A program made the translations under genes and the position numbers. From Symbiodinium natans (taxonomy: Eukaryota; Sar; Dinophyceae; Suessiales; Symbiodiniaceae), in contig CAJNDS010002002.1 of the NCBI GenBank assembly GCA_905221605.1, positions 372,001 through 436,000 of the forward strand: a DNA stretch of 64,000 nt, written 5' to 3'. The number at the start of each line of letters is the position of its first letter. The first letter of the stretch is position 1. A model generated the notes under the pieces. It ran no database searches. It saw only the letters and a program-made list of their open reading frames with translations, and was not told the DNA's origin. This document shows, in pieces, positions 3,961 through 55,830 of this stretch.

Positions 3961-3963
3961 CAT

Positions 3964-27780: not shown

Positions 27781-27880
27781 AGGGTTTAGGGTTTAGGGTT
27801 TAGGGCTTTTTAGGGTTTAGGGCTTTTCGGGGTCTAGGGCTTTTTAGGGTTTAGGGTTTAGGGCTTTTTAGGGTTTAGGG
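27781..27880 (+). repeat. TTTAGGG telomere-like tract 1
   Basis: Three perfect TTTAGGG repeats, then the degenerate form TTTAGGGCTTTTTAGGG. It ends TTTAGGG exactly where the LTR of element A begins. Confidence 0.9.
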
Positions 27881-28083
27881 TACAGGGGCAACCGAAAGGG
27901 GAAAGGAATCAACCCTAACAGTCGCCAGAGGTTTCACCCTGAACCAACCAGCAAACACCAAACACACGGGGTTTCTTTTTGCTACCAAGCGCATGGCCCA
28001 GTCTTGAGCCAATATTACCGGGCACATTGACCCTTTTTTCCTTTAACCTCAACACAATTCCTGAATACAACTGCAGCTCCGCA
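27881..28083 (-). repeat. 3' LTR of element A
   Basis: Matches 44536-44737 over its whole length with few differences. On the minus strand it runs from TGCGGAGCTGCAG to TTGCCCCTGTA. It includes TTGGCTCAAG (28009-28018), identical to the last ten bases of the spliced leader. Confidence 0.9.
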
Positions 28084-28112
28084 CTCCCCCTGTCCTAGGA
28101 TTTCCTAGGACA
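28084..28112 (-). promoter_or_regulatory. Polypurine tract and hairpin before 3' LTR (element A)
   Basis: On the minus strand GGGGGAG abuts the LTR start, the position and composition of a plus-strand primer. Directly upstream TGTCCTAGGA and TCCTAGGACA (28091-28112) form a perfect stem. Element B has the equivalent hairpin with a changed but still paired stem. Confidence 0.75.
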
Positions 28113-28463
28113 CAAAATTGGAGGTGCAGATTCTCGGCCAAAAACTGCCATTATCGACAGCAGCCAGCTGCTTGAAATGCATATAGTGGCTTAACGTCTT
28201 CCAGGACGGATTTTTATCAACGCATTGGTTGAACTCATTATACCATGAGGATCTTTTCACCTCTGATTATTTACTCGTCTTTGAAGACCTTTTCAGCCTT
28301 CTTCACCACGAACCGCGATCTTCGCTACTCTAAGTGCTGTACACTCTCTACTACCAGGGATTTCCCTACCCTTAATAGTAACCACCATACTTTCAGCGCA
28401 TTGGCTGTTCCAGCGCACTTGTCTTCGGAAAGAGAAAACCATTCCATCATTGACACCATCCAG
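28113..28463 (-). other. 3' untranslated region of element A
   Basis: No coding. It aligns in patches with the corresponding region of element B (GGAGGTGCAGAT, GGCCAAAA, CAGCAGCCA, TTTAACGTC, CCAGGACG), showing common descent of the two elements outside the LTRs. Confidence 0.7.
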
Positions 28464-29389
28464 TCATCCCTTCTTCTTCCTCCGATTGGCGTCGATGCTT
28501 AGATGGAGTCGCAGCAAAACATGTTCCAGGTCCGATACCGTAAGAACAGGATCTTGCACACACCTTTGAATTGAGGATACCAACCCCTCTCTCTTCGCGT
28601 CCTCAATTGCTTGGCAGGATTGTCCCAGTTCTGCGTCAACAGTGGTAGATGACTGCGCATCCACTTCAGAAGGACGATCCTTTTCTTCAGGACCCTTCAC
28701 CTTTGCCACCTCTTCCTTTTTTGGACTCTGGCTCTTCTCCTTCTTCCGCGTCTTTCCCGAAACGCTTGTCTTTGTGCGCGCTCGTGAAGAGGCCTTTTCC
28801 TCTCCAGAAACCACCACTTTTGTTGACGATCCACCCTTCTCAGCATTCACCGGCATCTTCTTCGGCTTTGGAACCAGAAGAGTGTATGGATCCTCACTTG
28901 CAGCAGTCTTCCGCTTCTTCTTGGCTTTTTTCGCCTCTTCCTCCACGGTAACCTCCGTCTCCAAGGTTTCCAATACCTCCTTTTTGGCAGGAGTGTCCTT
29001 CTGGGACTCCCCTTCTAGGGACCTCTTTTTGCCCCTTTTTGGATCGCTCTCTTCTTCCAGGTTAGCTCGTTGGAACCATATCCTCAAATCATCGATCCAC
29101 TCTTCAACCTCCACCAGTGGAATCTCATACGACTTCACTACTTCGTGAAGTTCCAATGAAGACAGCATGCCAGTAGTCCATGAACACCATTCTGCGTCCA
29201 TTTGGTCAGCATCTCCATTGAACTTCAAAAGCTTAAACACCGGATCCGCTTCCGCGCGGGCCAAATCTGACTTACCATCAGACATGTAAGAAATTGCCTC
29301 CATCAGCAATTCTATCATCCTGGTGTCGTCGTCGTACCCCATCAAATCCTCATCATCTTCATCATACCGTTCAGGAGAAATTTCCTTTC
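28464..29389 (-). pseudogene. Element A protein, C-terminal segment
   Basis: Acidic helical start (ERYDEDDEDLMGYDDD), a conserved helical block (MELL..ISYMSDGKSDLARAEADPVFKLLKF) and a Lys/Glu/Ser-rich charged tail ending NRRKKKG before the stop. It continues the CCCH segment at 37646 after removal of the nested LINE. The equivalent in A' (56198-57901) is uninterrupted. The role is unknown; the basic tail would suit nucleic-acid binding. Confidence 0.8.
29375..29389. repeat. Target-site duplication of nested LINE, left
   Basis: GAGAAATTTCCTTTC is repeated exactly at 37631-37645. The same 15 bases occur once, uninterrupted, in A' at 57109-57123. Confidence 0.95.
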
Positions 29390-29711
29390 GTCTGCACGCT
29401 GCGAGGCGTAGCCACCCGAAGGGGCTGAGGTTAGAGGGTGAAACATACAAACTACAAACTCTGCACAGTGAGACTACCGGTACTAGCCCTCACTTCCCTC
29501 AGACATTTGTCGAGGCCGAAATCCATGCCCTCAGACCGTGGTCGAGGCCGAAATTCCCTCAGGTCTTGCCGAGGCCGAAATTCCCTCATTTGCACCCCTC
29601 AGACCAGAGTCGAGGCCGAAACTTCCTCAGGCAGCACGCCGAGGCGGTATTTCTTGAGTCGGTTGGTGCTTCTCAGACCACTAGCCGTGTTTCTTGTCTG
29701 GGCTACGCTGC
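29390..29711 (-). other. LINE 3' region with five covarying hairpins
   Basis: Hairpins start at about 29497, 29529, 29557, 29597 and 29625. Their inner stem pairs are GAC/GTC, GAC/GTC, GG/CC, GAC/GTC and GGC/GCC, within a constant outer CCTC/GAGG stem with one bulged A. No protein coding is visible. Confidence 0.85.
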
Positions 29712-31016
29712 TCACTCATCCGCTTCGTCATACGGCATGCCCAACGTGATTTTCTGGATCTCTCCTGCCGGTACTGCAAGTAGGGTTCCAGCCCATCCTC
29801 GTTTTGCAATCCCGGCATCCAGTAGGTGCTGGGCAAAAGGCCCGACATTGCCCACGCACGCCATCCAAAGCGCGCTGGCCTTTCCGTCGTACGTTCTGAC
29901 CAATCCACGTATGGTTGCCAGTAGCTCCTCGTCATATTTCTCCAGGATGCGTACGAGGCCGCATGATAGCTTGTATTTCTCCTCCTGCAGCGTCGACCAC
30001 TCAGCCGTGTCAAAGAACACTGCCCGTGGTAGCGATCCTGACATCGGGTCGCGCCCAACGTTGCTCACCGTGATATCCGATAGAGCAACCCCTTGCATGG
30101 TCAGCCATGACGTTATAGCCACCAGGTAAAACAGGGACTGTCTGAGGACCCCGGCTTCTTGACGATGTTCCTGCCACCATGGGTTGAACAGTTCTGCTCT
30201 GCGGATGATACTTCCATAAAAGTAGTGGTGGTAGTGGCCCTCCACCGCCTCGTCGAAAAGGACTTTAATCCATCCTGCCCACAGGGTCCTGGTCACCAGG
30301 GTGGGGAATTGTTCCCCGTACCCTGCTTCGTTGCCAAAGCTCCGGGGTTCCGTCGCAAGTTTCATGACCCACAGCCGATCCAGAGCATATCCTCTTCGAG
30401 TACGCCCAGCTCCTATAAAGGGAAGCACTCTTGGCTGTAAGCTTTGCCCCGTCGTTGGGTTGCGTACCAATTGGACCTCCCCGATCCAATGGAGCGCTGT
30501 CCTTGGCCGCTGCTGGTTCTGCAGTTTGTGCACCACAAGGTGCACTGGCTTTTCTTGCCCCGTTGCTTCCTCTGGCTCCTGTCCCTCAGCTTCCCGCGAG
30601 GCCATGTTGTGGGCACCTGGTCCTTCTGCCAGCGTGACTGTACGAGGCTGGCTTTCGTCTTCCTCTTCATCAACACCCTCAGCTTGGTGCGAGGCCGCAC
30701 TTTCTTCTCCTCTCTCCCGTAGGCGTACCGGACCCGCAGGAGGTTCCGAAGCACTCGCCTCGTCCCTATCCCAAGTCTGTTCCGGGTGTCTGGCCTGTCG
30801 AAGCGGGGAACGGTCTCGCATGGGCTCATCCTGCTGCTTGTGCTTGCCTTTGCCTTTGCCTTTGTCCGGCCGATTCCTGAGCCAGGATGGCAATCTGGAC
30901 CCTTGTCTCCTCATCGTCGCGTCCGTTTTCCATTGCCTCATAGTTCCAGACCTGTCGTTTCCCTCAGCGATGCCGAATGCACGCCGCACCGCGAGGCCGA
31001 AAGTATCCCTCAGCAA
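29712..31016 (-). CDS. LINE ORF3, protein kinase-like domain
   Basis: An open frame of 434 codons, the first being TTG; the first ATG is about residue 26. It begins within a few bases of the ORF2 stop, so it is probably translated by coupling or reinitiation, or expressed from the same RNA. The N-terminal third is charged and repetitive and includes the hairpin-encoded peptide ASREAEG. The C-terminal two thirds look like a kinase fold: LWVMKLATEP (candidate beta-3 lysine), a helix, then GVALSDITVSNVG in the place of the catalytic loop and FFDTAEW in the place of DFG. The HRD histidine is absent, so activity is doubtful. The kinase call is my motif reading only. Confidence 0.55.
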   Translation of the reverse strand: MLRDTFGLAVRRAFGIAEGNDRSGTMRQWKTDATMRRQGSRLPSWLRNRPDKGKGKGKHKQQDEPMRDRSPLRQARHPEQTWDRDEASASEPPAGPVRLRERGEESAASHQAEGVDEEEDESQPRTVTLAEGPGAHNMASREAEGQEPEEATGQEKPVHLVVHKLQNQQRPRTALHWIGEVQLVRNPTTGQSLQPRVLPFIGAGRTRRGYALDRLWVMKLATEPRSFGNEAGYGEQFPTLVTRTLWAGWIKVLFDEAVEGHYHHYFYGSIIRRAELFNPWWQEHRQEAGVLRQSLFYLVAITSWLTMQGVALSDITVSNVGRDPMSGSLPRAVFFDTAEWSTLQEEKYKLSCGLVRILEKYDEELLATIRGLVRTYDGKASALWMACVGNVGPFAQHLLDAGIAKRGWAGTLLAVPAGEIQKITLGMPYDEADE

Positions 31017-34000
31017 AGCGAGGCCGCCTCAGCTTGGCGAGGCCTAACAAACAGTGACATCTTTTGCTGTGCACTGGCTTGGGGCTTAGCTTTGGCGTGT
31101 TTTCCACCAAACTGAACTCGAGGCTGTTGAAACTGGACGTGGCTCATACTACCACCATTGACAAGGGTTTGCGCTTGGGTAGCCAGCTTGCCCTGGGAAG
31201 TCCGCGATTTGCACTCACCCGCCAGGCTTTTATTGCACCTCTGGCTAACCGGCGCATGTGTTCTGTCACACTTTGCGCAAACCCATCGGATCCCCAAATT
31301 CACCATATTATGGGAGGGGTGGATTCCCCACTCTTCCCGCACACGCGCCTCCGGCTGGTTGACGCAGTACTGCTCCAATACCACCTCCAAGTTCGTGAGG
31401 GTTTGTTGTACATACAAACCACACAGTCGGCATTTCAGGGTTAAATTCCGGGGGTGTTCGCTGCCCTTCTCCCATTGATGCCCACGCTCCGGGTTGTCAA
31501 GCAACTGCCAAAGCCGCTGGCGTTTGTTGAGTTTGGCTCCGCCATGCTCTTTTTTGCATCCCTCAGCTTTCTGCGAGGCTTCCATCTTCTCTTTGTAATG
31601 CGCATGGTCCAGGATGAAGGGGAAGTCTTCTTCTTTGCGCTTCCGCAATATGTGGGCTGCGCGTGCACCGTACGCCAGGGAAAGTGTGCGCACCACATTG
31701 TCCAACTCTTTGACACGCCTCTTGTGCGCTGGGCTGTAAGCAGCCGCCGCCACTGCTCCACATACTTTGTCTGCCATGTCATTCGCTGCACGTCGCCACA
31801 ACGTGCCCGGCCCCATCTTCGCCAGGAATTCCTCTTCAGTTTTGTGGGACGGGACCCATGTTGCCTTGATACGTTTCCTGTCATTCCACACTTTGCTCCA
31901 TTCCAGGTCATCCTCCGGCGGTTGTGTTTTTTGTAGCGCTTGGACTGCCGGCTTGCAATCCATAGTGACATCAATCAGATCCTCCGTGTGCTCCATTAGT
32001 CGGAAAAGTGCACGGCGCTCCATGTCCACCACCGGCTGCCACGGGTAGACCAGCTCTGTAATCCGTCCGACTTCCACCAGCACACCTTTTGTCCAGGACA
32101 TAGCCACCACTGCGAGGGCTGATGTTTGTACACGTGGGTCTATTCCTCCTGGACCTCCACTTGCGTCAGTGGCGAAGATCAAGCCTTCCGCTTCCACTTT
32201 TGCATCTGCTGCGAAGCATCCTTGGTAGCGCAGACCTAAAAGGTGTTCCGGCGGCTTCGGGTGCCACACCGCCGGCTTTGGCAGGAGTGCCCTTGTCCAC
32301 AGACACTCCCATGGGTATTTGTGGCGCAAGTATTCCTGGAGCTTGGGTTCTTTGAACCCTTGTTCACGCCAGTAAGGACATTCTTTGAGGACATGCTCCA
32401 GAGTTGCTGGCATTTGGCACTTCTTGCACCATCCAGGCTTGGACTCCGTGATGACGCCCGCGTGCCACACTGACTTTATACCTTCCATAAGGCCTGGGCT
32501 TAGGCCTCCCAGCTTCGTCAGCTTGTGATGCGGCGTCCAATCCAGCCCCTCTTGGGCACCAGCGCCACCTGCCTGTCGCGCTATTGCAGCCCGTTTCTGT
32601 TCCTCCAGGAATCCCTCAAGCCATTTGTAGGCGAGGCTACCCATGCGTGGCTGGGTCCAATCAACGTTGAGGACACTTCCTCTCTTCCATTTGCCTGGGT
32701 CACTGGCATCCACCTTCAGATCCATTAAGTACGCCATGGTTGCTGCCATCGGTCCCGTGACCAGTGGCCAGTGGTGTTTGGCCGCACTCAACCTCTTCCA
32801 AGTGGTTTTCCAGGCCAAGTCAAAGTGGGCTTTTCCGCCACCAATCCATGCACGGAAAACTTTAGCCACCACCTTGAAATGCTGCTTGTGGATTGTGCTC
32901 TTCGGATCCTGGCATTTCTTGGCTCCCATGTCCAAAATGGTTTCCAAACTACCAAGCTTGTATTTGCCCAGGTGTTTTCCAACCACTGTACGGAGCCATT
33001 TCATTCTTTTGGGTGATACCCCCACTGATGGGTGCCCCCACAGAGCCACGGATGTGATCGCAGCCTTAACCACGCGGAGTTTAGTGCTGGGCGGCGGCCC
33101 CAGCCTGGACAGCTTGCTTTGTCGTGCGTGTGCTTTTTTCGCCCGCGTGGCCGACGTCACCAAGCGACGCTTTCTCCCACCTGTACTGTCGACGCCCAAG
33201 TCACGCATCACGTCGTACACTTGCGGCTCATGCGGTAACAGTAGTCCTCGCAGGTGCTTGCTCGCCTGGGTACTGCTGGCTACAAACCCTGTCTTCTTGG
33301 ATGAAATCGTGAAACCATTGGCGTCCATCCCGTCCTTTAAGCTGCGGTAGACTCGTATCGCACTATCCGCCGCTTGTTTAAAGGATTTATGCTGGATGTC
33401 AATTGAGACATCATCCAACCAACAATCCACATTTGTCACATCTCTTCGCCTTTGGATCTTATCAATCACCGGGTGCAATGCCACCTTTGCCAACGATGGC
33501 GCCGCTGGGCAACCCGCTTGCACGCCATTCGTAGCTCTGATGCCTGCCGATAGCACCCCATCCGCCACCAAATATCTGGCACCCATGTACACTTCCAGTG
33601 CCATCTTCAGGATTAGCGGTGGATATTGCAGGGCCGTTGCTGCCGTGATCAGTTGCTGAAATTGGATGGTATCGAAAAAGGACTCAAGGTCCACAAAGAG
33701 TGACACCACATGCACACCATTTGTCTTCGCCACCTCATTTCGCAGCAGTCTGCCTACGGCCACGTCCAAGCAGCAACTGCCTGGGACTGCCTTGTCGTAC
33801 GTGGCATTTTTGGCATAGCCTGCCTGCCAAGTACTTACCAAATCCCATCGCAAACGGACCCAGGTCCTGTACAGGATGTGTAGCAAGGCGATTGGTCTTT
33901 CCCGGGTCAGATTCTTCGGCAGCATTGCTATAAGGGAGACTGTCATTTGCTGCGGCCATGCTGCCTTGGCCTCACATTCATGGTAGAAGGACACAACGGC

Positions 34001-36106
34001 TTCAACTGCTTTGTCGTCCATGGCCTGCAAATGGTCAATCCTCCAGCCATCCGGCCCCGGGCTCTTTAGTGCCAGTTTTTTGATCCTTGCCTTGACCTCT
34101 ACAGTGTTCAGCGGCTCCACGCTGGCCGCTTGTTTTTTGGCTGCATCCTCAAGCTCCGTCATGAGCGAGGCCGATTTTGCCAACGGCTGGCCCTTCGTCC
34201 ACACTGCCGCCCAGTGGTCTCGGCGAATGTGTGGCCGTTCCAGCATGTCATATTCCATGTAGGGTCTTTGTACCACTTGTTCTTCTTTTCGCAAGGCATT
34301 GTATAATGGTCGCATGCCCTTTTCCATGGCCTTGCTGAGCCATTGCTTGTACTGGTGGGCTGTCTCCTCCATATCCGCCTTTCTCGCGTAGCATTGCTGT
34401 TCGTCGATGCGCTTCAGAACAAGTCTAGCGTCCGTACCCCGGCCCAGGATACTCACGAGCATATCCTCCTGGTTCTGCGCATCACCCTCGTAATACTCGC
34501 CGAGCCTGCGTTGGACCAGACGCGCCACCGGGTGCGCATCGCCATGATGTCTGCCTTGTTTGACCCATTGTTGGACCCGGTTCCAAAAGGCCGCCCTCTT
34601 GCCTGTCCAGACAACGTTCTCCGGGTTGTTGACCACCAACTTCTTCCGGACAATCTCCGATTTAACACCCATACCGTCGATTCGGCCTGTGATCGACCTC
34701 TCCACACCGGCACTCAGGTGAGCGAATGTCTCACTGAGCTCATCTTCCATCTTGGGTTCATCCAAGATGTTGATGGTCTTTGTGTTTTGAACTGGTTCGT
34801 ATTCCACAGTCTCCGTCACCAGTGCTCCCGCCTTCTTCATCTGGGGAACATCAGGGCTACTGCACGGTTGGGCTACCCTCCAATGCATCGCAGCATGAGG
34901 CCGAAAAGGGGTTTCCCAATCCGTTTTCACTTGCAGGATGGGCACCAAGCATTTCGCAACCAGCCCGTAATCGATTTCGTCCGATCCTTGGGCCGTTGGT
35001 TCCCCCACTCCAACAAATGCACCACCAACTTCTGTCGCCATAGTTGTGCCCCTCATGGTATCCTGGGTTTCATTCCAATCTCCTAACACCATGTATGGCA
35101 CTTTGCAGCCTTTGAGGAAGGCTATCAGTCTCGCCAGTACCTGGACATTGTTTGGAGCCTGGAATCCGACTCCGCTCTCCAAATACAGGCTGACGATGAT
35201 CAAATCCCAGCCTTTGTTTCGCATGGCACATGCCAGGAAGCCCGCGGGTCCTGAACCAAACTCAGCAAGGTATCGCAGGTTCCTGTGTCGGGGTGCCGCC
35301 ACTGCCAGGCCTCCTTGCACACCCTTAATTTTTGTACTGCCAGGCATGCCAATGAAGGTAGATCCCATATCCTGGCAATGGCTCATGGCTTGCTGGATAC
35401 CCTCTGTCCTGAGATGGGTTTCCTGCAGCACCACCAGGTCCGGTCCTAGCTCGTGTATCCATGCCGCAATGGGTTTTCTCCAGCTGGTGATGTTAGCCGC
35501 CGTAATCCTGATACATGCGGCCGTATCCCCTTGGCGATACCCCCTGGCCACGTCTTCCAGGATCCATTTGGCATATTGTGCATCCTTCTCCACAAAGGAA
35601 CGGAGCACTTCGTGGCATGCTCGTTGTTGCAGCGGGTTTAGATCTTGCTCTTCCAGTTTTTCAATGGCTTCGAGTGCGGTAGCCTCACTGGGAGCATCAT
35701 ATTGACCCACCACTTGGCATAGCATGTGCCACTCCTGTGGCAGTTCCTTTGGTGGCTCTTTTGGTGTCGCGTTACGCCTCTTGGTCTTTTGTTTGCCTCT
35801 GTGACCCTCAGCGCATTGCGAGGCCGAAAACCTTATTTCCTCAGCGCCATGCGAGGCCTTCGTGTTCTCCCCTCTTTCCGCTGCCGGGTCTCCTCTCTGC
35901 GTTTTGCCTCCCTCAGCTTCTCGCGAGGCCGAATGCTCACCTTCCTCTTCGATGTCCTCCCATGTCATATGGAAGTATCTGGGCCCTGTGACCGTCCAAC
36001 TGCTTTCTACTGTTCGGACAGGCTCCGGACCTTTCGTGACTGGACTCCAGCCCTCTTGGCTGTCTTCCACTGTGCTGTTTGTACTAGGCACATGGGTACA
36101 AGACAC
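31010..36106 (-). CDS. LINE ORF2: endonuclease, reverse transcriptase, RNase H
   Basis: Open for 1,698 codons from a GTG; the first ATG is about residue 47. An AP-endonuclease-like domain at about 200-410 shows N205, QETHL with E229, GDWN (D343, N345) and SDEIDY. The RT spans about 665-960: SPGPDGW, FVDLESFF (804-811), GVQAGCP (861) and CWLDD (D898, D899; W replaces the usual Y). A knuckle WCKKC...H...C lies at 1226-1243. RNase H has D1314 in ATDASGG, E1363, D1383 and a later NDMAD aspartate. Cys-pairs near the C-terminus add a zinc finger. It would nick the target and prime reverse transcription there. The stop codon lies inside a hairpin repeat. Confidence 0.93.
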   Translation of the reverse strand: MSCTHVPSTNSTVEDSQEGWSPVTKGPEPVRTVESSWTVTGPRYFHMTWEDIEEEGEHSASREAEGGKTQRGDPAAERGENTKASHGAEEIRFSASQCAEGHRGKQKTKRRNATPKEPPKELPQEWHMLCQVVGQYDAPSEATALEAIEKLEEQDLNPLQQRACHEVLRSFVEKDAQYAKWILEDVARGYRQGDTAACIRITAANITSWRKPIAAWIHELGPDLVVLQETHLRTEGIQQAMSHCQDMGSTFIGMPGSTKIKGVQGGLAVAAPRHRNLRYLAEFGSGPAGFLACAMRNKGWDLIIVSLYLESGVGFQAPNNVQVLARLIAFLKGCKVPYMVLGDWNETQDTMRGTTMATEVGGAFVGVGEPTAQGSDEIDYGLVAKCLVPILQVKTDWETPFRPHAAMHWRVAQPCSSPDVPQMKKAGALVTETVEYEPVQNTKTINILDEPKMEDELSETFAHLSAGVERSITGRIDGMGVKSEIVRKKLVVNNPENVVWTGKRAAFWNRVQQWVKQGRHHGDAHPVARLVQRRLGEYYEGDAQNQEDMLVSILGRGTDARLVLKRIDEQQCYARKADMEETAHQYKQWLSKAMEKGMRPLYNALRKEEQVVQRPYMEYDMLERPHIRRDHWAAVWTKGQPLAKSASLMTELEDAAKKQAASVEPLNTVEVKARIKKLALKSPGPDGWRIDHLQAMDDKAVEAVVSFYHECEAKAAWPQQMTVSLIAMLPKNLTRERPIALLHILYRTWVRLRWDLVSTWQAGYAKNATYDKAVPGSCCLDVAVGRLLRNEVAKTNGVHVVSLFVDLESFFDTIQFQQLITAATALQYPPLILKMALEVYMGARYLVADGVLSAGIRATNGVQAGCPAAPSLAKVALHPVIDKIQRRRDVTNVDCWLDDVSIDIQHKSFKQAADSAIRVYRSLKDGMDANGFTISSKKTGFVASSTQASKHLRGLLLPHEPQVYDVMRDLGVDSTGGRKRRLVTSATRAKKAHARQSKLSRLGPPPSTKLRVVKAAITSVALWGHPSVGVSPKRMKWLRTVVGKHLGKYKLGSLETILDMGAKKCQDPKSTIHKQHFKVVAKVFRAWIGGGKAHFDLAWKTTWKRLSAAKHHWPLVTGPMAATMAYLMDLKVDASDPGKWKRGSVLNVDWTQPRMGSLAYKWLEGFLEEQKRAAIARQAGGAGAQEGLDWTPHHKLTKLGGLSPGLMEGIKSVWHAGVITESKPGWCKKCQMPATLEHVLKECPYWREQGFKEPKLQEYLRHKYPWECLWTRALLPKPAVWHPKPPEHLLGLRYQGCFAADAKVEAEGLIFATDASGGPGGIDPRVQTSALAVVAMSWTKGVLVEVGRITELVYPWQPVVDMERRALFRLMEHTEDLIDVTMDCKPAVQALQKTQPPEDDLEWSKVWNDRKRIKATWVPSHKTEEEFLAKMGPGTLWRRAANDMADKVCGAVAAAAYSPAHKRRVKELDNVVRTLSLAYGARAAHILRKRKEEDFPFILDHAHYKEKMEASQKAEGCKKEHGGAKLNKRQRLWQLLDNPERGHQWEKGSEHPRNLTLKCRLCGLYVQQTLTNLEVVLEQYCVNQPEARVREEWGIHPSHNMVNLGIRWVCAKCDRTHAPVSQRCNKSLAGECKSRTSQGKLATQAQTLVNGGSMSHVQFQQPRVQFGGKHAKAKPQASAQQKMSLFVRPRQAEAASLC

Positions 36107-36298
36107 AGCTTGACTGCCTTCCCCATGCGCCTGTGGCCATACAATGTCCCCGTGACACTGCTTTCGGCCACCACCAAAAGTGTAAACAGAGTCTCCCCAT
36201 TGAGACTCCTCAGACTGTCTTGCTTGCTTCTTTTGGCTGTTCGGACCAGGAGCGACTCTGAGGTGTCGGCCCCTCCGCTCCTGTCCCAGCCTGAGGCT

Positions 36299-37270
36299 TC
36301 ATTCGCCATGGGCACGCGCCGGCGAGCGTTCGCGCCCCGTCGGTGTTGCCCTGACTGACACATCTCGAGACATGCGCATCGGCCCATACATGCCAAGTTC
36401 GGCTGGCATGCCTGGCTCTCTTGGTCCCAAGACTCCAGTCCAGTCTGTCTCCACGACCTTGACTGCTATCCTTGTTTTGAGCGCTTCCGCTTGCTCGTCG
36501 GTCAGGATGATCCCTTCCTTTTCCAAGTAGGACGCGACGTCCTTGTACGGCGAATCCTCCTCATCTTTCACACAGGCTTGTACCTTCCTCTGTGCTTCCG
36601 CAACCTCAAGCTCCGTGGTCTGAATGGCCTGGCTGACTTGCGCAAGCTGCTTCATGGCCTGCTCGAACTCGCTCTTGATCCTTTCCGTTTTGTCTTGAAG
36701 CCGGACTTTCTTCTCAATGAGGGATCTCAGCTTGTTTGTGGTCTTCTTATATGCACCGACGTGGCGGCTGAGCTCCTGCTTTGGCGTCTCGTCCTCAGGC
36801 TTGTAGTCCCCTGGAGGGGGAATGCCCGCTGCTCGGAGCAGCCGTTGTACTGCAGGCTCAGCTCCTTGCCACACCGTTTCAATGGCCGCGTGGTACTCCT
36901 TCTGCGACATGCTTTCTGCTTGCGATCCATCGCCAGGTAATCCCGGGGGCCAAATTGGCCCCGGCTCCATCGTCCGCGGCTTCCATCCTGCTTCTTCGAT
37001 GGCCTTCTTTGCCTCCATAGAAAGCGTACCCCACGCCTTCGTGAGGGCTTGGTCGGCCATCCCTTCTTTGTTCTTGGCATGTCTTGTCCACCATGTAGCG
37101 TATTCCTTTGGCCATTGCCACTTCTTACGCTGGCTTGACCATGCTCGCTCACGGTAGGTGGCCTTTTTCCACGCCTTTCCGCAATGCCAGCAGTTCGGGT
37201 TGTAGTACAAGTCTTCATTCCAGACCCAACCCACCTCACAGTGGGCACACACAGTACAATGCTTCCCCAT
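36299..37270 (-). CDS. LINE ORF1 protein, zinc ribbon plus coiled coil
   Basis: ATG at 37270 gives about 324 residues. A C-x2-C...C-x2-C zinc ribbon (CAHCEVGWVWNEDLYYNP, then NCWHCGKAW) is near the N-terminus. The second half has a long heptad-like coiled coil (KLRSLIEKKVRLQDKTERIK onward). ORF1 proteins of LINEs coat the RNA and often combine coiled coil and nucleic-acid-binding parts, so that role is inferred from position and architecture. The frame is open further upstream from a TTG, but that part runs through the 5' hairpins. It is separated from ORF2 by about 190 bp. Confidence 0.75.
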   Translation of the reverse strand: MGKHCTVCAHCEVGWVWNEDLYYNPNCWHCGKAWKKATYRERAWSSQRKKWQWPKEYATWWTRHAKNKEGMADQALTKAWGTLSMEAKKAIEEAGWKPRTMEPGPIWPPGLPGDGSQAESMSQKEYHAAIETVWQGAEPAVQRLLRAAGIPPPGDYKPEDETPKQELSRHVGAYKKTTNKLRSLIEKKVRLQDKTERIKSEFEQAMKQLAQVSQAIQTTELEVAEAQRKVQACVKDEEDSPYKDVASYLEKEGIILTDEQAEALKTRIAVKVVETDWTGVLGPREPGMPAELGMYGPMRMSRDVSVRATPTGRERSPARAHGE

Positions 37271-37299
37271 GACTGCTGCAGCCTGATGCCAGTCCCACC

Positions 37300-37476
37300 A
37301 GCACCTCAGCAATGCGAGGCCGGAAGATCCCCTCAACCGTAGTGAGGCCGAACTTTATGTGTCCTCAGCCGGAGCGAGGCCGAAACTGGCCACTCCCTCT
37401 GCCGAAGCGAGGCCGAAAACACACCCTCTGCCGAAGCGAGGCCGAAAAGTTCCCTCAGCACTTGGCGAGGCCGTAC
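37300..37476 (-). promoter_or_regulatory. Cluster of six hairpins in LINE 5' region
   Basis: Bulged hairpins at about 37304, 37331, 37363, 37395, 37424 and 37453, roughly 30 bp apart. Most have GC/GC inner pairs; the one at 37331 has AC/GT. Each is followed by GGCCG(A/G)A or similar on the plus strand. They lie between the spliced-leader relic and ORF1, so they would be in the RNA leader. Confidence 0.8.
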
Positions 37477-46040: not shown

Positions 46041-49000
46041 CGCCTTTTTTCCCCCACAGCCCTTGATGTAGCCGTCGAAGGATGTACTTGGCCAGCTCCC
46101 AGAGTAAAATCATTGCCACTATATCCAAGTTGTTCAGTGCTATTTCTATGCCTTGCGCCAGAACCATTGCCGTGGATTCATTGGATACTCTACACACCCC
46201 ATCTTCTGAGCAGAAAAAACCAGGCGTTCGCGTCTCAACTGTTGCCATCCCTTGAAGAGATGCAGCCACCATCATGACCGCCATTGCAAGAGAGGCCCTT
46301 TTCAAGTCAGTTCCTTGCACCAACATTTGGAGACCCCAAAGCGCCTTTTGTTTCGCGTAAACCTGTCCACTCATCAGTTTTGTTAACAGGTCAGCAATCA
46401 TGTACTCACCACGAAGATGTGCTATCACCATGTAGCCACGGTCAACCAGAGACCTGACACCAGCTGCTCGAATTCTCAGGTGCCTTGTCCTCCAACTTCC
46501 AGCAGGATGTTGAATAATTGAGCACGTCGAAACCGAATCTGTATACAGCACTTTCTGCAGCGTTTCTTCACCGGTTCCCACCAAAGCGGCAATTATGGGA
46601 GTACACGACTGAATCATCGTTGCTCCCTCTATAGACGCATGTAACTCAGCTTCAGCAGTACTCAAAGCCACCGTTGACTGTCTCTGCGTTGCCCACATCA
46701 CCGGACAATCACCCCAAACCACTACCGCTCCTGAGTGGCTCTTTTCGTTTTCACCTGCTGCAAAACTAGCATCTGCGTAGGACTCTACCACCTTGATGCC
46801 TCGCCCATAACGCAACAACTCAGTCCGTTCTTTTTCGCTTGTTGCGATTGCTCCAAACGTCAAGCCCAACGTTGGAGTTGCAGCAAGGTACCGAAATACC
46901 TCCTCAGCCTTTTTAACCACGAATCGCGGCCTTCGAGATGTCCACAAAGACAGCTGGCTTGTGCAGAAAGCCAAATCAGGTCGAGTTTTGATTGCCACCC
47001 AGAGGAACTCCCCTACGGCACCTTGAGCCGCTCGTAAGGAAGGAATATCCACCTCCTCTTCTTCACCAGGGGTTTCTTTAACCGTTGGCAGATTACTGCC
47101 TTTTCCAGTTTCATCAATCTGATACCCTCGTCGGTTCAGCAAATCTCTCACGAAGTCCTCTTGGTTGAGAAAGAAGCTGCCATTTCGATACCAGATCTGG
47201 ACACCCAAAAACTTCAGGAATCCATCACCACAGCCTGGACCACAGAACTCAGGTTCAGAAGTTTTCCACCCCTTCCTGATCTGTTCCAAGGCTTCCCGGA
47301 GCACTGTCATAGTCCCGGCCATCAAAAAATCATCCACGTAAAGACCCATTGTCCCTACCAACTCGCTTGCGCCTTCCAGCTTCTCTTGTGCCATAATAAG
47401 GAACAGACTTGGGTCTGCATTGGACCTCTGAAAGCTCATTGCTTGTCCATCCTTTGACACCCAAGACATGCCTTGAAGACGCTGATCTCGCCACTCCACC
47501 CATGCTGCAGGACTTTCGGCCAAACCATACAAGGCCTTCCTCAAAATCCACCGCTCCTCCATTGTGCAAAGACCCAATTTCACCGCCGCCCTTGGGGGCT
47601 GCACCACCACCAGACGCCCTTCTCTTTGTGCCCTATTCATCGGCGCCGTCAGAAAAGCTTTGGAAATGTCCAAACCAGCGATGATCCACACCATATATGC
47701 TGCGTGCCTCACTTGACACCTAAATGTAGTTGAATCTAAACCAGGAGCGTACAGCGAGTGACGACTAAGGGACCTAGGCCCTTCGTATTCTGGGGCCGCT
47801 GTTGACGAAATAAAATTGCCACATGCACAAATACGGGCACGTCGCCTTCCAGTCCCTTGCTTCCGGGTAAACACCACCAGACTGGGCACGTACTCAATCA
47901 CCGGTGCATTAGGCTCTTCCGCCAATTTGTCCAGCTTTTCTTGAGTTGTTGGTTCAACCACCTCCAACTCTTTAACCAAAGACGTCACCTCGTCCGACAA
48001 TGGTTCCCTCCACTTTTCAAGCTCTTGCATGGCTTCTTGTGTAGGAATCGTTTTTGTCTGCAGGAACTCAACCTCCTCTGCTGCTTCAAGCGCTATATTT
48101 TCTTGCACCATTTGCTGAACTTGTGCTGCTTTGACCAAAAACTTCGATAGCTGTTCCTCTGTTCTTTTCGCTTTAACCAGCCATTCTCTAGTCTCTGATC
48201 CTTTTTCTCCAGTCGACTCATTGGCCGATTCATGGAACTCGTCCAAAACACAGCCTTCCTGTTCAGCAATTAGGCGTCGAATACTCAAATGCTCCTCCAG
48301 AGCCCGTTGCTGCGCCTCAAAAACAGCATAGTCGACTTCCTCAGCAATGTCGTCCAGCGAGGTCTCTTTCAACGTCATCTTTAACCACTTCCTTTTTTCA
48401 CCTTCTTCAGCTTGTGGTTCCGGAAGAGGAAACTTACATTGGAGAAGAAAGCACCTATCCTTGTAGCTCAATCGCTCCATAAAAACAGGTGTGTACCCTG
48501 TCAAAGATACCCTGTTCCCTTTCCAAGGCATAGGTCCATGCAATTTTCTGGGAAAGAACGACATGAAGTTCCAGTGGATATTGACTAATTTTCCAGGCAA
48601 GACTTTCTTCCCATAGGATTGCTCCACCACTTCAGCTCCTTCCTCTAAAACCTTCTCATCCTCAACCCACAGCTGACCATCCTTATAGTCACCAAAGCTA
48701 CACACATAATTGTAGCAATGCTTCTCATTGTGACTATCTCTATGCAATGACACCGGAGCATTGCATGAGATCTGAAGAGCAGAGAAATTGGCTTCAGGAT
48801 TGTGGTGCTTCACGAATGATGCCAGGTATCGACACAGCCATGGCCTCCGATGGGTCTCTTTTGTAATACCACACACTCCACCATGAGTATAGTGGCCCAA
48901 CACCAGAGCTCGCGTACTTGTGCACCAATTGTTAATACCACCTCTTCGGTTCACCCTCTTTGGGTATACAATCACTTCCAAAAGCTCTTCGCAGTCCACG

Positions 49001-49095
49001 TAATCGTACATAGACCTTTCATACATCGATTTGGCTTTTTGCTCTTCTTTTTCCAACTGTGTTCCATCCTCTGCAATCTCCCTTTTGCAGACCAA
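45973..49095 (-). pseudogene. Copia polyprotein: 2OG-oxygenase-like domain, RT and RNase H
   Basis: 1,040 codons without a true start; it follows the integrase part after frameshifts. Residues 60-205 look like a 2OG-Fe(II) oxygenase: LHRDSHN (H118, D120), GQLWVEDE, LHGPMPW (H186) and NRVSLTGYTP (candidate 2OG-binding Arg). A coiled-coil stretch covers about 290-380. Copia RT: LDISKAF (D476), LRKALYGLAESP and GLYVDDF (YVDD 586-589). RNase H: YADASF (D775), STAEAELHA (E815/E817) and YTDSVST (D853), then ADLLTK. RT and RNase H make the cDNA in the particle; the oxygenase role is unknown. Confidence 0.88.
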
Positions 49096-49428
49096 ATAAG
49101 CATCTTACAACAAGTCGGCCAATACTCATCACCAGGAACATTGTCCTCAATATCTACATTTTCTTCCAGCTCCCCCAGACCCTGCATGTCATCCTCAAAA
49201 ATTTCTAAGGGCGGACTCTCCCCCCGCTTGCGAAGCGAAGGAGCCCACATGAACACGCAGTGAAGAGGCCGGGCTTTTTGACACTAACCGATGGCGAACT
49301 GGAGGATCGCGAGGTGGAGGTACTGGAGGGCCCTCCTCATCAGCAAAGCGAAGCGCTGGTTTTTTCCCCTTGAGACGATGCTCTGGAGGAGAAGGCTCCT
49401 GTTCTTCTGCCACCCCTTCCAACTCCAA
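48972..49428 (-). pseudogene. Integrase-RT linker, frameshifted
   Basis: Two minus frames bridge the integrase and RT frames: 49428-49195 (Pro- and Arg-rich, PPVPPPRDPPVRHRL) and 49256-48972 (acidic, EENVDIEDNVPGDEYW). Both flow into neighbours only by frameshift. They represent the flexible linker of the copia polyprotein. Confidence 0.55.
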
Positions 49429-50890
49429 TTCTGGCGGATTGTAGTGCAGGGAAATAGCACCAGTTCATCCGGATCTTTTGCAGTCCCTTGAGCTTCCACC
49501 CAATAACCACCAGGTAGGTCATCACATGGACCCGTGTACGATCGACCCATTGCCGACCCTTCTTTGTTCCATCCGGACCCAGCAACTCCCACGGACGACG
49601 TTTGACTTGAATCTGAGCACCAAAGGGAAGCAATTCCTTCGGGTTTAACCCCAACTCCCTTTCAGCTTTATGCCACCGTAGCACTGACCAATGGCGAGCA
49701 GCCAGTGCCCAGTACGCCGGCCCGAGTCGCGCCTCCTTTAAGAGCGACCTTACACCACGTTTGAATAAACCCACACATGCTTCAGCGCGCCCATTGGTTT
49801 GTGGGACTCCAGGATCACCAGTGGTCCTATATATCAGACGAGTTTCGCAAAAGGACCGGAAGCGTGCATTGACAAACTCCCCCGCTCGATCTGAATGGAT
49901 TCTTAACACCGGATACCCTTGTCTTTGCAGGCGCACCATCATCCTTTGAACAGCCGATAAAACAGTTGTCTGTTGTTTGTCCACAATCGGCTCCACCATA
50001 ACGAAGTTGATCATACGAACAGGCTGGGTCAAGTGGTCCTTCAGTTCCTTCCAGGATTTTTTAGAAGCTTGGATTTTTAACACCTCTGCCTCCAGAACTG
50101 GTGCAGGTTCCACTGGTTCAGAGTCCTCTTCCTCGAAGTTAGCGGCCGCATCACCCAGCCATTCTCCGACACCAGCACCTTCATCTTCCACCTGATCTTC
50201 CACCTCGCCCGCATCTTCCTCCTTTTCCGGAGGGCGACCCACATTGGGATCCAACATTGGAAATTGATAAACACCAATAACAGCGTGTCGTGGCTTCTGC
50301 TGGTGAGCATCCTTGGAACACTTGTACGGACCCGCCAAGTCCAACGACAAAGTGTAGGCATCCCCATGCTTCCGCCTTAAATGGCGACGCTCTTTTCCAG
50401 CGGCAGACACACAAATTTGACAATCACGTCTGAAAGGAATATGCCCCCCTAGGCAATGATCACGGAAAGCTCGCTCTTCAGCCGTTAACCTCCGTAACGT
50501 TCCTTCTCGTTCTTCCTTTTTTGACAGTATAGTTTCCCGTTCAGCATCGCTCTCCTGCAACCATTGTGCCAACCTGTGACGTATTCTTTTTACCAACCCA
50601 AACGCCCATCGTGCCCATATGGAGGATTGTCCAATACGTTCTTCCAGGGTAGAAGCGAATGTTGCTGACCACGGAACAACCACACGAACCTGTTCCAACG
50701 ATTCCCATAGTTCTATGTCAGACACCAGGAAAGTCGTAGGCTTCACCAGAGCATGTCCCAATGCTCCTTGATCAAAATGTGCAGCGTACATTCCATAACG
50801 CTCGCGAAAACATTTTACCTCTGGCCAACTCCAGAAGGTAGGACTTGAGAACCCTTTCTGAGAACCATCCACCAGATCCTCAGCACTCAA
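49340..50890 (-). pseudogene. Copia integrase
   Basis: A 516-codon frame. The first about 80 residues (WPEVKCFRERYGM, FDQGALGHALVKPTT) finish the upstream methyltransferase-like region. A zinc-binding HCLGGHIPFRRDCQIC (H145, H150, C157, C160) precedes the catalytic core: D184 in LSLDLAGP, D334 in HSDRAGEF and E370 in NGRAEACV. D334 and E370 are 35 residues apart, the classical DD35E spacing. An acidic insert of about 60 residues lies between the first two aspartates. It would join the cDNA ends to target DNA. The frame is off by one from the upstream segment and stops at 49340. Confidence 0.9.
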
Positions 50891-50919
50891 GACCGTTTTG
50901 TAGTTCTAGAAATCTTTCC

Positions 50920-51741
50920 CTATGAGCTCAGGGTCCCCAGGACTTTCCATGCCAAAGAAGACAGAGCTCCCATTGATGACACAGCAGTTCCACACCTTGA
51001 ATGCACCGCCACGTCATATAGGAAAAGCATCTTCAGAAGTAAGACACCATCCTTTTGAGCCAATTCTTGATGTGGCCAAGGAAGACTCTTTAATCCAAAC
51101 CGTTCAGGCCCACAGCGCCGGCGTAATACAGGTGGACCACCGTCTTCACCTCTCAACCTTGACACTGTCCTGCATGGAGGTCCTCCAACCACAGCAACCA
51201 CCTTTCCTTCAGCCGCCAGATGCAGAAGATACTTCCAGACGCTCGAATTGTGTAGGTCATCGCCTTTCTTCAAATCCAGCTCCAGTACCTCCACAACCCG
51301 ACTGGGAAAATGCCATTTTTGTTTTCCCGAAAATAGGTGTACCACCACCCTTTTTGCTCGTGCCACCCGTCGCCTTTTATGACGGTTGAAAGGCAACGCC
51401 GCAATATCACCACGTGGCAACAGCTCCATCAGCATATGTTCTGGTACATCACCATAATACCACCGAAGAAATCGCCAACAAGCCTGGACGAACTCCTCCT
51501 CGTTCGCTGACGCTGTCCGCGCTGCGCTTTGCAACGACGCTTTTACGGCCACTTCATTGTCCGTATTCGGACACCCTTGAACCATACGTGCCACCTTTAA
51601 TGCTTGCTTTGGTGAGCACCAGTCCATTTCATCAATGATCTGAAGCGCCACCTCTTTTTCTAAACAAGGGCACCCATTCAGATCTCGAACGCGAAGTTCC
51701 CCCGAACAGGATGTGAGGCTGTGCACTTGCCACCACGCCAC
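50920..51741 (-). pseudogene. Methyltransferase-like domain of copia polyprotein
   Basis: A 273-codon frame in phase with Gag-protease but after a TGA. The start (GCPCLEKEVALQIIDEM) resembles the end of dinoflagellate copia proteases. From residue 131 it reads VVVHLFSGK (135-139 like the C5-methyltransferase motif I), VLELDLKKGDDLHN, and then VVGGPPCRTVS (186-194 like motif IV with the catalytic Pro-Cys). The domain continues after a frameshift into the integrase frame. C5-methyltransferases captured by dinoflagellate retrotransposons have been reported; I cannot say whether this is that domain. The cysteine is present; other motifs are weak, so activity is uncertain. Confidence 0.6.
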
Positions 51742-51801
51742 TGTACTCTGAGACCAACCAAGGCGCTCGCTTTGCCAATTGGCACTAGTGGATCTACCGT
51801 T

Positions 51802-54800
51802 TCAGGAGTTACCCAGGGCCCCACCTGGGGTAATACACATCTCCCGAGATCCAACGGCTAAAGACACCAACACCTTTTGCTGCGGAAGCTGTTCACCAGG
51901 ACGAAGTGATCTGAGAGGATGTGATGCCCCCGAGTCCAACACGCCCATTCCCGAGCACTCATTGGTGTCAGAAACCCTGGCCACACGTAGGACGCATACT
52001 CCTCGGCCTTCTCCCTGCTTCGGCAACAACGTGGCATCAGACGAACCGGCTCCACAGTCCGCCCTTCCATTCCTCCATTGAGAATGGGACCAAGACGCAC
52101 ACTGTCTTTCAGCATGCAAAACCATCTTTTCAGCTGTCTTGTAATCCATAACCAAACAGCCATGTTCAAACCACAAGAGCTGGTCCAGCGAAGATTTTGC
52201 TCCCACGTGACACATCCCATTGATCACCGTGAGGTTCGCCCCAAACTCCAAGATCAACCAGAGAGGGATAATCAGAGGCCCATTGTCTTCCCTAATCAAT
52301 GTCCCTTTCTCTGTAATCCTCATTGTCACACCAAGCGCGCTTTGCACCGTAACAGTAGTGTCGGGTAAACATTCCCATGGAAAAAGCGTCCGCACAAGGT
52401 GTGTCGCAGCTGTATCCACCAAGGCCACCCTGTTCTCATGCTGAAGTAACCCAGAATCACACAACACACGAATACTGGGTTCGCTGCTCGACCCGGCCTG
52501 CTGAGGTGACAGCTTCAAAGACTTCAGCACCTCAAGCGCCTCAGCGTAGAATTGGTTAGGCGTTGGTGGGGACGAAGGACTTGCAGAACCTCCTTCAGTT
52601 CCCACATTTGCAGTCTCTTCTCCTCCCTCAGCCACTTCTGCCTTTTTGGCATTACCCCATTTTGCACCTTTGCCGCCCTTTCCCCCCTTGGGAGAATTCC
52701 CTTTAAATTTATTCCTTTCGGAATTTGGGTCCGCATTGGGACTCGCACCATCTTTGTATGGACACTGCGGCTGTAAATGGCCAACGGCCCCACATTCGAA
52801 ACATCTTCCGCGCTCCAGGGAGTCCTTGTCGCGGCGAAACTTGCAGCGTGATCCAAACCTGCAGCCTGCTTCTGTCTTTCCATATACCCAACAGAATGGA
52901 CGTTCACCATCATTGCTGTACCTTTTTCCTTTCCCTTTGCTTTTGTCACCCTCCTCTGTCTCGTCACCAGTTCCCTTTTGGGCCTTGTTTAACCTTGCCC
53001 TTTTCTTGGCGTCCGAGTCCTGCTTCACCTCTTGATCACCAGCGCTATGCAATAGCAGCTCAAACTCTGCCTGTAACATTTCAGCTAGTTGTGTCGCAGT
53101 TTCAGAGGTCGGAGAGTAGTCCACCCCCAATTTCTCCCGAAAGGATGCCACTCTAAAATGAACCGTAGGGTGTTTCGCCAGCAACGCAGATGATAAAGCA
53201 TCCAATCCCTTGATAAGCAAGGTAGCGTCCGGCTCGGTCGCTCGCAACTCCCTTAATCGGGAACGCCATTGCGCCCATTGACGCACTCCCTTTATGGCCT
53301 CTGAAATCGAGGTAGCCGAAGACGGTTGCACCAAGAAGTTCAACATTGTGCTGCGCTCGTTTGCTCCACCTGGTTGGTAAACCGTCAGCAATTTGTAAAA
53401 TATCATCACCGATCCCAACATTCGAGTGGAAACGATCTCAGTCTTTAACCTCTCCGGAATCGCCTGCAGCAGCAGAGACACCGCCCTCTGCTCCAACAAA
53501 ACGTGCGCAGTTTGAACCACCTTGAGTCCTTCCAGCTCAGCCTTGATGCCCAACCTTTCCAGCGGGGAAACACTCAACCATTTGGCATACGCCTGATACG
53601 CCCTTGAATAGACGCATTGCCACCACACCCTTCCTGTATCTGTCAGCGAAGACAACATTGGTTCGATCATTGCGATCCAATCTCCTAGTGCCGTCGGATT
53701 GCTTGGCGTATAGTCTGCCAAAGTAGGAAGACTCATCACATGCTTTCCAAGAGCCTCCGGACGTTCGGTTCCAGAACTATCACCAATTGTTGGCATACCT
53801 CGTGGCGCCACTGCTCCAGGAGGTAAACTGACACTACCACCAGGCCTTTGCGGCAGTCCATGTCCCATACCAGGCGTAAGAGCTGTTAGTGGAACCTTTT
53901 CTAATTCCAACTTTCCAGCTGTCATTTTCCACCGATACGGAACATTTTCCACCATTGTATATCCACCCGATCCTGCAGCATTCTCTTGTGTCACGGTTTC
54001 CCGAGCTGAAATAAAACCGGGCTGATTCACTATAGGCGCGGCAGAACCATCAACACCTGCCGGCAAGGAAGTTATCGGCACCTGTGTCAAACCGGGCGGG
54101 CCACCTGCATATGCACCACTTGCAGAACCTCCCAGGGGGTAATTCAGCGGAGGCAATCTGGAGGGTTTCTTCCCTTCAGGTAAATGCATCATTGGCACTT
54201 CTCTTTCGGCCTCCACCTTACCATCCCCCTTCCTGGGCTCAGGCAAGGGTTGAAGATCACAACCCTTTGGAAGGTCGTAGCCCTCAATCGGCAGCCATGT
54301 CCCATCAGGCGACACAGTCCAAAAACCACCCAAACCATCAGTGTAAAAAGCTTGTCCTGGCGGATACTGTTTCTCTGGAGTCATGCCCAAGGGATATGCA
54401 GCATTTGCGTCCACCACTCCAGTGCTCCGTGCTCGCGAAACTGACTCAGATGCAGCAGAGGCATAACTTTTCTCCTCCACTCTATGCAACCTGTTTCCCA
54501 GCTCCTTTGTATGCACCAGCAGCTCTTTATGTGCACGCTTTACCACTGCCATATCTTCACCTTGTTCTTCACCAGTCAGATCAGGAATAAGCTCTTCCTC
54601 TGCTTGTGTCTCACCAATGTTACCTCGTTCCATCTGGCCCATTAAGCCTGACGATGGCCTCTCAGCTGGTGCAGGTTCTCGATCCCGAAGATCTGGCAGC
54701 GACGGTGGCCTCCTCGTATTTTCACCACTTCTATCCCCTCCGCTCGCAGGAAGACTTGCCGGCCTTGATTGCCTCAGTCTCATTTCTTCATGAGCCCGCT

Positions 54801-55002
54801 CGCTCCAGAAAGGATTCGCTGCTGGAAACGGAACCACTTCATTTTCCACCTGAGACGTTTGTTGCACCACTGCAACTTCCCTACCATCTGTCAGCGCTTG
54901 TACCACTTGCTGTCGTTCTTCACCCCCATCACCACGATTTTCTTCGGCTTCATTGGCCGCGGATGACAGTCCAGGTTCCGACCGACGCCGCAACATGTCC
55001 AT
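51802..55002 (-). pseudogene. Copia Gag and protease
   Basis: ATG at 55002, 43 nt from the primer-binding site (upstream in-frame codons start at a TTG). Residues are numbered from that TTG, 1,070 in all. A disordered N-terminus is followed by a retro-Gag helical domain at about 436-650 and a degenerate CCCH finger (CWVYGKTEAGCRFGSRCKFR; the histidine is Arg) at 708-727. A CCHC knuckle CFECGAVGHLQPQC lies at 738-751. Two retropepsin-type sites follow: DTAATH at 866-871 with a full domain behind it, and DSGASH at 1027-1032. The frame stops at a TGA at 51802-51804; the downstream domain is in the same frame, so one change (for example CGA to TGA) may have broken it. Gag forms the particle and protease cleaves the polyprotein. 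Confidence 0.88.
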
Positions 55003-55044
55003 TGCGCCAAACAAGTGTAGAATCTTACCTACACCGCAGGGAGC

Positions 55045-55063
55045 CTAATTTGGGCTCATAACC
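55045..55063 (-). promoter_or_regulatory. Primer-binding site of element B
   Basis: Same 19 bases against the LTR as in element A (CTAATTTGGGCTCATAACC on the plus strand), matching the initiator tRNA-Met anticodon arm. Confidence 0.8.
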
Positions 55064-55257
55064 TACGGGGGGCAACCAAAGGGGGACAAGGAACAAAACG
55101 GTCAACCCCAGAAGAAGCCCTTAAACTCCCTGGACCAACCACACAACAAACCCAAACCGCAGGGCACTCACCTTTTACTGCCAGGCACATGGCCCAGTCT
55201 TGAGCCAATCATTATCGGGCGGTTCACCCTTCCAACCTATACAATGCATCCTCCGCA
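55064..55257 (-). repeat. 5' LTR of element B
   Basis: Pairs with 45450-45643. It ends CTCCGCA and is followed at once by TAGGGTTTAGGG. The leader-like TTGGCTCAAG is at about 55198-55207. Confidence 0.92.
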
Positions 55258-55624
55258 TAGGGTTTAGGGCTTTAGGGCTTAGGGCTTTTTAGGGTTTAGG
55301 GCTTTTTCGGGTTTGGGGCTTTTTAGGGTTTAGAGTTTAGGGTTTTTTAGGGTTTAGGGTTTAAGCCTTAGGGTTTGGTTCTTTTTAGGGTTTAGGACTT
55401 TAGGGCTTTTAAGGGTTTTTTTCGGGTTTAGGGCGTTTTAGGGTTGAGGGCTTTTTAGGGTTTAGGGCCTTTTAGGGTTTAGGGCTTTTTAGGGTTTAGG
55501 GCTTTTTAGGGTCTAGGGCTGTTTAGGGTTTAGGGCTTTGTAGGGTTTAGGGCTTTTTAGGGTCTAGGGCGTTTTAGGGTTTAGGGCTTTTTAGGATTTA
55601 GGGTTCAGGGTTCAGGGTTTAAGG
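55258..55624 (+). repeat. TTTAGGG telomere-like tract 3
   Basis: About 367 bp of the same degenerate 17-bp pattern. It separates B from A' and ends GGGTTTAAGG at the LTR of A'. Confidence 0.9.
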
Positions 55625-55830
55625 TACGGGGGCAACCGAAAGGGGAAAGGAATCAACCCTAACAGTCGCCAGAGGTTTCACCCTGAACCAACCAGCAAAC
55701 ACCAAAAACACGAGGTTTCTTTTTGCTACCAGGCGCATGGCCCAGTCTTGAGCCATTAATATCATCGGGCACATTGACCCTTTTCCTTTAAACCTCAACG
55801 CAATTCCTGAATACAAACTGCAGCTCCGCA
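55625..55830 (-). repeat. 3' LTR of element A'
   Basis: About 206 bp, closely matching 27881-28083, with the TTGGCTCAAG motif near 55747. Confidence 0.9.

Follow-up and report, generated by a model that had tools for sequence, protein, structure and literature searches.

We analysed a window of 64,000 nucleotides from the dinoflagellate Symbiodinium natans (contig C1746, positions 372001-436000, of genome G000, which comprises 759,417,921 bases in 2,543 contigs), in which three long terminal repeat (LTR) elements, here called A, B and C, are embedded in telomere-like DNA of the TTTAGGG type. The sequence flanking such elements across the genome leaves us highly confident that they belong to a multi-copy clan, consisting of copia-type elements and partners that lack pol, which inserts at one register of heptamer arrays and duplicates TAGGG in doing so. 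The limits of the LTRs were placed where the outer flank and the element interior diverge. The features, which include a long interspersed nuclear element (LINE) and several open reading frames (ORFs), are as follows:

27781..27880 (100 bp), plus strand: telomere-like tract 1, TTTAGGG heptamers with 17/24-bp variants
27881..44737, minus strand: LTR element A, with CCCH zinc-finger ORFs and a nested LINE, flanked by TAGGG/TAGGG
27881..28083, minus strand: left LTR of element A, 203 bp
29390..37630 (approximate limits), minus strand: LINE-type element nested in A, RVT_1, with 15-bp GAGAAATTTCCTTTC on each side
44536..44737, minus strand: right LTR of element A, 202 bp, with 2 mismatches and 1 gap column against the left LTR
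44738..45449 (712 bp), plus strand: telomere-like tract 2
45450..55257, minus strand: LTR element B, in the copia order gag-protease, integrase, reverse transcriptase-RNase H, with broken frames, flanked by TAGGG/TAGGG
45450..45643, minus strand: left LTR of element B, 194 bp
45973..49104, minus strand: reverse transcriptase (RT)/RNase H of B, RVT_2, with YVDD
49340..50905, minus strand: integrase region of B, rve at 21.9 bits, under the Pfam cut-off of 32.6
50920..51801, minus strand: conserved domain of B between protease and integrase, with methyltransferase-like motifs, unproven
51802..55044, minus strand: gag of B, with a CCHC-type motif and the protease motif DSGAS
55064..55257, minus strand: right LTR of element B, 194 bp, with 2 mismatches against the left LTR
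55258..55624 (367 bp), plus strand: telomere-like tract 3
55625..64000, minus strand: LTR element C, a member of the A family that runs off the window; its right LTR ends 258 bp beyond the window
55625..55830, minus strand: left LTR of element C, 206 bp

The telomere repeat reported for dinoflagellates is TTTAGGG (PMC11453091). In the window it occurs 107 times, against 6.55 expected from shuffles, and 96 of these matches fall in the three tracts, which total 1,179 bp. The tracts are a degenerate telomere-like satellite rather than pure telomere, because their main unit, as found by Tandem Repeats Finder (TRF), is the 17-bp TAGGGTTTAGGGCTTTT. A preliminary description of this DNA had placed five LTR edges directly beside TTTAGGG-type sequence, and all five positions proved correct. 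On the plus strand the LTRs read TAC...CTCCGCA (TG...TA on the coding, minus, strand), and their edges are sharp. The 5-bp TAGGG stands on both sides of A and of B, and is the sole fit among duplication lengths 2 to 19 tried for these two elements. The right end of C, which we recovered by fetching 500 bp past the window, reads CTCCGCA followed directly by TAGGG, with one mismatch in the left flank (TAAGG); a fourth related LTR starts after TTTAGGG, 87 bp of array beyond this end. All three insertion points in the window follow TTTA[A/G]GG, a class that accounts for 100 of the 1,179 tract positions. When 5 bases are dropped, the empty site of B closely resembles intact repeat at 44839 (2/40 mismatches) and 45153 (3/40); no other drop length between 0 and 12 does better than 5 mismatches.

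A table of the flanks of related LTRs across the genome had been named beforehand as the test of targeting to telomeric repeats. We built it with a 14-mer from the LTR end, ACTGCAGCTCCGCA, which has 345 matches in the genome (control, 3), and took the first 100 of these 345 places. Seventy-eight of them could be joined into 39 pairs, each within one contig and strand and separated by 4.6 to 28.8 kb, which we took as two-LTR elements. Of the others, C320 was known beforehand, 18 had no partner and three lay in a tandem on C447, of which one was fetched and two were left out, so that 98 places were examined. The five bases outside the right LTR of the 39 pairs were TAGGG in 19, CCCTA in 16, and TTGGG, CTGGG, CACCA and CAGGC in one each. 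TAGGG or CCCTA thus marks 35 of 39 right edges, compared with 1.19% of sampled bases (binomial p = 3e-63) and 11.7% of array bases (p = 1e-28), and chance and mere landing within arrays are therefore both excluded. This outcome supports the original proposal that copia-type elements direct their integration to telomeric repeats or to a satellite derived from them.

The same pairs establish the duplication. Four were left out of this count (two with short left flanks, one without an LTR start and one that was an inner LTR edge), and an identical 5-bp duplication was found in 34 of the 35 usable pairs (17 TAGGG, 14 CCCTA, and one each of TTGGG, CTGGG and CAGGC), the remaining pair differing by one base (CACCG/CACCA). 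No usable pair matched at 3, 4, 6 or 7 bp. The TAGGG flanks in the window, which had been regarded as possible but ambiguous target-site duplications, are thus real. The common orientation of the elements, also remarked upon earlier, is a property of the window that does not extend to the genome, where elements face either way relative to the repeat (17:14; p = 0.72). At least two heptamer-like units were present in the first 50 bp of 30/39 right flanks and 23/38 left flanks (some left-hand pieces were short), as compared with 643 of 4,000 random 50-mers from the sampled sequence. Most of the tabulated copies do not lie in unrelated sequence, and in this sample the tracts do not move with the elements, so that neither of the two outcomes named beforehand as refuting the proposal was observed.

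To gauge the background, we counted the repeat itself. The trimer (TTTAGGG)3 occurs at 1,185,204 plus-strand and 1,184,385 minus-strand places in the genome, overlaps counted, and its reversed control at 41 and 33. Two samples were drawn: 14 stretches of 10 kb (one containing 3,673 N), being those present among 20 sought at one fixed position in evenly spaced contigs, and 20 stretches of 2.5 kb. Telomere-like arrays covered 5.9% of bases in the first sample (140 kb; 10/14 stretches with some) and 10.3% in the second (50 kb; 12/20 stretches), or 13,396 of 190,000 bases (7.1%) in both together. Within the 190,000 sampled bases there are 2,258 starts of TAGGG or CCCTA, and within the 13,396 array bases 1,561. 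The first sample contained 163 arrays (78 and 85 on the two strands; median span, 42 bp), approximately one per kilobase, and three related elements (L019, L023 and L030); the second held no related LTR. The visible edges of these three elements (CTCCGCA followed by CCCTGAACCCTG in L019, TTTAGGG followed by TAC in L023 and AACCCTA followed by TAC in L030) were all telomere-like, with the repeat running the other way at two of them, and the right ends complete the duplications TAGGG in L023 and CCCTA in L030. Arrays and elements are independent of each other. The repeat is dispersed, and several element pairs sit hundreds of kilobases inside long contigs. Because arrays are spread genome-wide (~7% of sampled bases), an analogy with insect telomere retroposons, suggested at the outset, holds as far as the landing sequence goes. 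Protein relatives and telomere type point to a dinoflagellate host; no spliced-leader match was found within the window.

Oriented to the G-rich strand, the 31 perfect sites carry GGGTT ahead of the duplication in every case where that flank was available (27-30 sites per position), and the sequence after it, TTTAGGGTT, is matched by 27-30 of 31 sites per position. All 26 sites with sufficient flank have GGGTT there, compared with 1,220 of 1,552 (79%) TAGGG in arrays. The strong result is the register rather than a long recognised sequence, because the footprint exceeds the array background only modestly; its wider extent is suggestive of recognition of the neighbouring heptamers. Insertion into one heptamer register is very unusual for an LTR element.

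The contents of the elements bear on which enzymes could be responsible. B carries, in order, gag (CCHC-type, DSGAS), the conserved domain, the rve-like ORF at 49340-50905 and the RVT_2 ORF at 45973-49104 (RVT_2 at 38.6 bits; cut-off 31.6), and with its integrase ahead of RT it is copia-type as judged by gene order and RT family. Paired LTRs with a short, constant target duplication, seen in A, B and 34 of the 35 usable pairs, are likewise a trait of Ty1/copia elements. Its frames contain at least one in-frame stop as well as frame changes. The closest named relatives of its RT among the best 7,997 candidates are RE1 of S. natans (33% identity over 81%). In A (LINE removed) and C, tblastn with the B proteins detected no copia pol, the sole hit being a weak gag match (E 0.003-0.008), and we therefore call A a presumptive non-autonomous partner rather than an autonomous copia element. 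CCCH zinc-finger ORFs are present in both A and C, and one ORF of C is matched by at least 35 protein clusters. The ratio of nonsynonymous to synonymous substitution (dN/dS) between A and C was 0.27-0.61 in seven ORF comparisons, favouring silent differences, an estimate blurred by broken frames.

Several features tie the two types together. When the 36 columns with gaps are set aside, A and B LTRs share 69% identity; a 19-bp block is common to all five LTRs, and GGGCTCATAACC adjoins the LTRs of both A and B. B-type LTR ends are marked by AATGCATCCTCCGCA. In copia half-tRNA priming, the primer site pairs with an internal stretch of initiator tRNA-Met; GGGCTCATAACC may resemble the anticodon region of that tRNA. 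L030 (C2530:50001-60000) has an A-type LTR around a B-type interior (91% identity over 9.1 kb), which represents LTR exchange between the types. Because the LTRs are related, GGGCTCATAACC is common and L030 mixes both types, A and B form one clan, in which A is plausibly mobilised by B enzymes. The LINE within A, which has a weak Exo_endo_phos match below the cut-off, used an unrelated 15-bp site, duplicated as GAGAAATTTCCTTTC, and thus not every retroelement here follows the repeat.

Two further motifs were observed in B. The region 50920-51801 together with the start of 49340-50905 (minus strand) contains VHLFSG and GGPPCRTVS, and is matched by 16 protein clusters. We presume a likeness of these motifs to C5-methyltransferases, which sequence and fold searches did not confirm. 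Symbiodinium Copia is reported to lack a DNA methyltransferase (DNMT) domain (PMC5890265). The N-terminal part of the RT ORF (48390-49104, minus strand) bears an HRD...H...R pattern that is kept in S. natans RE1. This pattern, which has no Pfam match, we likewise presume to be akin to that of 2-oxoglutarate oxygenases. An oxygenase in a retroelement would, if true, be of interest because dinoflagellate DNA carries 5-hydroxymethyluracil (PMC11071213).

Taken as a mechanism, the TTTAGGG repeat seems to be a landing site recognised to the base, either by the elements or by a helper protein. The pre-integration complex inserts at GGGTT^TAGGG^TTTAGGG on the G-rich strand with a staggered cut of 5 bp, so that TAGGG is duplicated. 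The integrase would come from B-type elements and may also mobilise the A type, which lacks pol but has related LTRs and the same GGGCTCATAACC beside them; the preference would act at integration and not by later selection. Elements keep to one register of an asymmetric repeat yet enter it in either orientation, and for this reason we lean slightly towards an integrase docked in a fixed register by a TTTAGGG-bound protein, of which the telobox-Myb type is a possible example, with direct reading of the DNA by the integrase also possible.

Other accounts of these data have to be set against sequence-directed integration. Arrays make up 5.9% of bases in the 140-kb sample and 10.3% in the 50-kb sample, and (TTTAGGG)3 has 2.37 million overlapping matches, so that randomly inserted LTRs in such a genome might meet the repeat by chance. 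The array share would then predict about 3 of 39 insertions in arrays, and TAGGG or CCCTA at 1.2% of right edges rather than at 35 of 39 (p = 3e-63); the flank table of 39 pairs refutes random insertion, to which we assign practically no probability. A subtler possibility is attraction to the region rather than to its sequence, through G-quadruplex (G4) structure or the open chromatin of a nucleosome-free array. G4 motifs do cover 827 of the 1,179 tract bases, compared with 8 plus-strand bases elsewhere in the window, and microsatellite 'landing pads' have been linked to DNA conformation for plant and human elements (PMC12477314). Regional attraction predicts no single register, however, and TAGGG or CCCTA starts at 11.7% of array bases as against 35/39 edges (p = 1e-28), which makes it an unlikely explanation by itself, although structure or open chromatin may add to targeting.

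The remaining two accounts appear very improbable, and to a similar degree. Every visible LTR edge in the window touches a tract and some outside tracts are short, as if the tracts were part of the elements, or were added to LTR ends after insertion by telomerase or end repair, and moved along with them. Against this, the same 5 bp flank both sides in 34 of 35 usable pairs, the 163 arrays in 140 kb are accompanied by just 3 related elements, tract lengths differ between the two sides and give way to other sequence at varying distances, and the off-target copies on C399 and C331 have no tract. Alternatively, insertion could be loose, with selection subsequently removing copies outside arrays, which are likely to be harmless sites; selection would not be expected to see the register within a 7-bp repeat, and within each of A and B the two LTRs share 99% identity, leaving little time for loss.

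A number of observations weigh against base-precise targeting or limit its extent. The 14-mer samples A-type LTR ends only, and four of the 39 right edges (TTGGG, CTGGG, CACCA and CAGGC) depart from TAGGG/CCCTA. At least three copies lie outside arrays, those on C331, C399 and C556 being without a tract, and specificity is therefore not absolute. Nineteen unpaired or tandem places were fetched: TAGGG or CCCTA stood at 8 of them, 5 were inner edges and 6 were neither. These last six, of which two have a flank in common and another is the C447 tandem, may be chance 14-mers, truncated copies or off-target copies. The comparison with retroelements outside the clan consists of the LINE nested in A alone, and includes no unrelated LTR family. 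For the empty site of A, a drop of 12 bases gives a perfect match and a drop of 5 gives 2 mismatches, because 17- and 24-bp units coexist in the array, and A alone therefore cannot settle the duplication length. No telomere-type DNA-binding domain was listed for the B ORFs or for the one A ORF scanned. Finally, the perfect 19-mer occurs at 18 of 26 insertions as compared with 691 occurrences for 1,552 array TAGGG, and conservation around array TAGGG in general also drops with distance. Because flanks beyond the duplication are only modestly above the array background, we are evenly divided over a bolder picture, in which target choice approaches that of a restriction enzyme (by integrase contact or docking), arrays at ~1 per kb form a genome-wide landing grid, and array and element may have spread together.

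LTR elements are generally targeted by protein tethers with loose local sequence, and Ty5 of Saccharomyces is of the copia type. Like the elements described here, Ty5 favours telomeric regions, with its integrase using the host tether Sir4; it targets silent chromatin, and no sequence- or register-specific duplication is described in the accessible parts of the sources (PMC8909793, PMC4700185), whereas the present elements target the heptamer as such, in arrays scattered genome-wide. A review ascribes Ty targeting to protein contacts and not to DNA sequence (PMC4700185). Insertion targeted to telomeric repeats is shared with the TTAGG-specific TRAS/SART of Bombyx (PMC7265360, PMC4700185), and telomere-repeat-related targets with the fungal MoTeR, CNL1 and FoTeR (PMC12810828, PMC12857005), which are associated with chromosome ends. 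All of these are non-LTR elements, and the present elements fall outside the non-LTR telomere-specific class (TRAS/SART, HeT-A, MoTeR), which uses target-primed reverse transcription, by their paired LTRs, integrase region and fixed 5-bp duplications. Dada elements likewise show specificity for multicopy DNA outside non-LTR elements, but are DNA transposons aimed at small RNA genes (PMC3706591). Among the candidates compared, the closest named kin of the B RT are Symbiodinium Copia (S. natans RE1, and the abundant Copia of PMC5890265), whose target-site specificity is not mentioned in the accessible parts of PMC5890265 or PMC11453091. No report of telomere-repeat-specific LTR elements in dinoflagellates appeared among the titles and abstract openings surveyed, most subscription papers being outside reach. 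LTR elements directed to telomeres (Ty5) are known, as are non-LTR elements specific for telomeric repeats; base-precise choice of telomeric heptamers by an LTR element was not met among the titles and abstract openings surveyed. A fixed TAGGG duplication at a fixed TTTAGGG register makes recognition testable in vitro with short oligonucleotides, and raises the question of why interstitial telomere-like DNA is so plentiful in this genome.

Other repeats occupy the left part of the window. A tandem repeat at ~10240-25850 has a period near 1,563 bp, with some shorter units, and TTTAGGG recurs in it at ten places. Arrays of a 57-bp satellite lie at 3963-6374, 9955-10236 and 25862-27350, with orientation inverted around 5388. 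The tract at 8150-8442 is C-rich and of low complexity, and contains the window's only minus-strand G4 motif runs.

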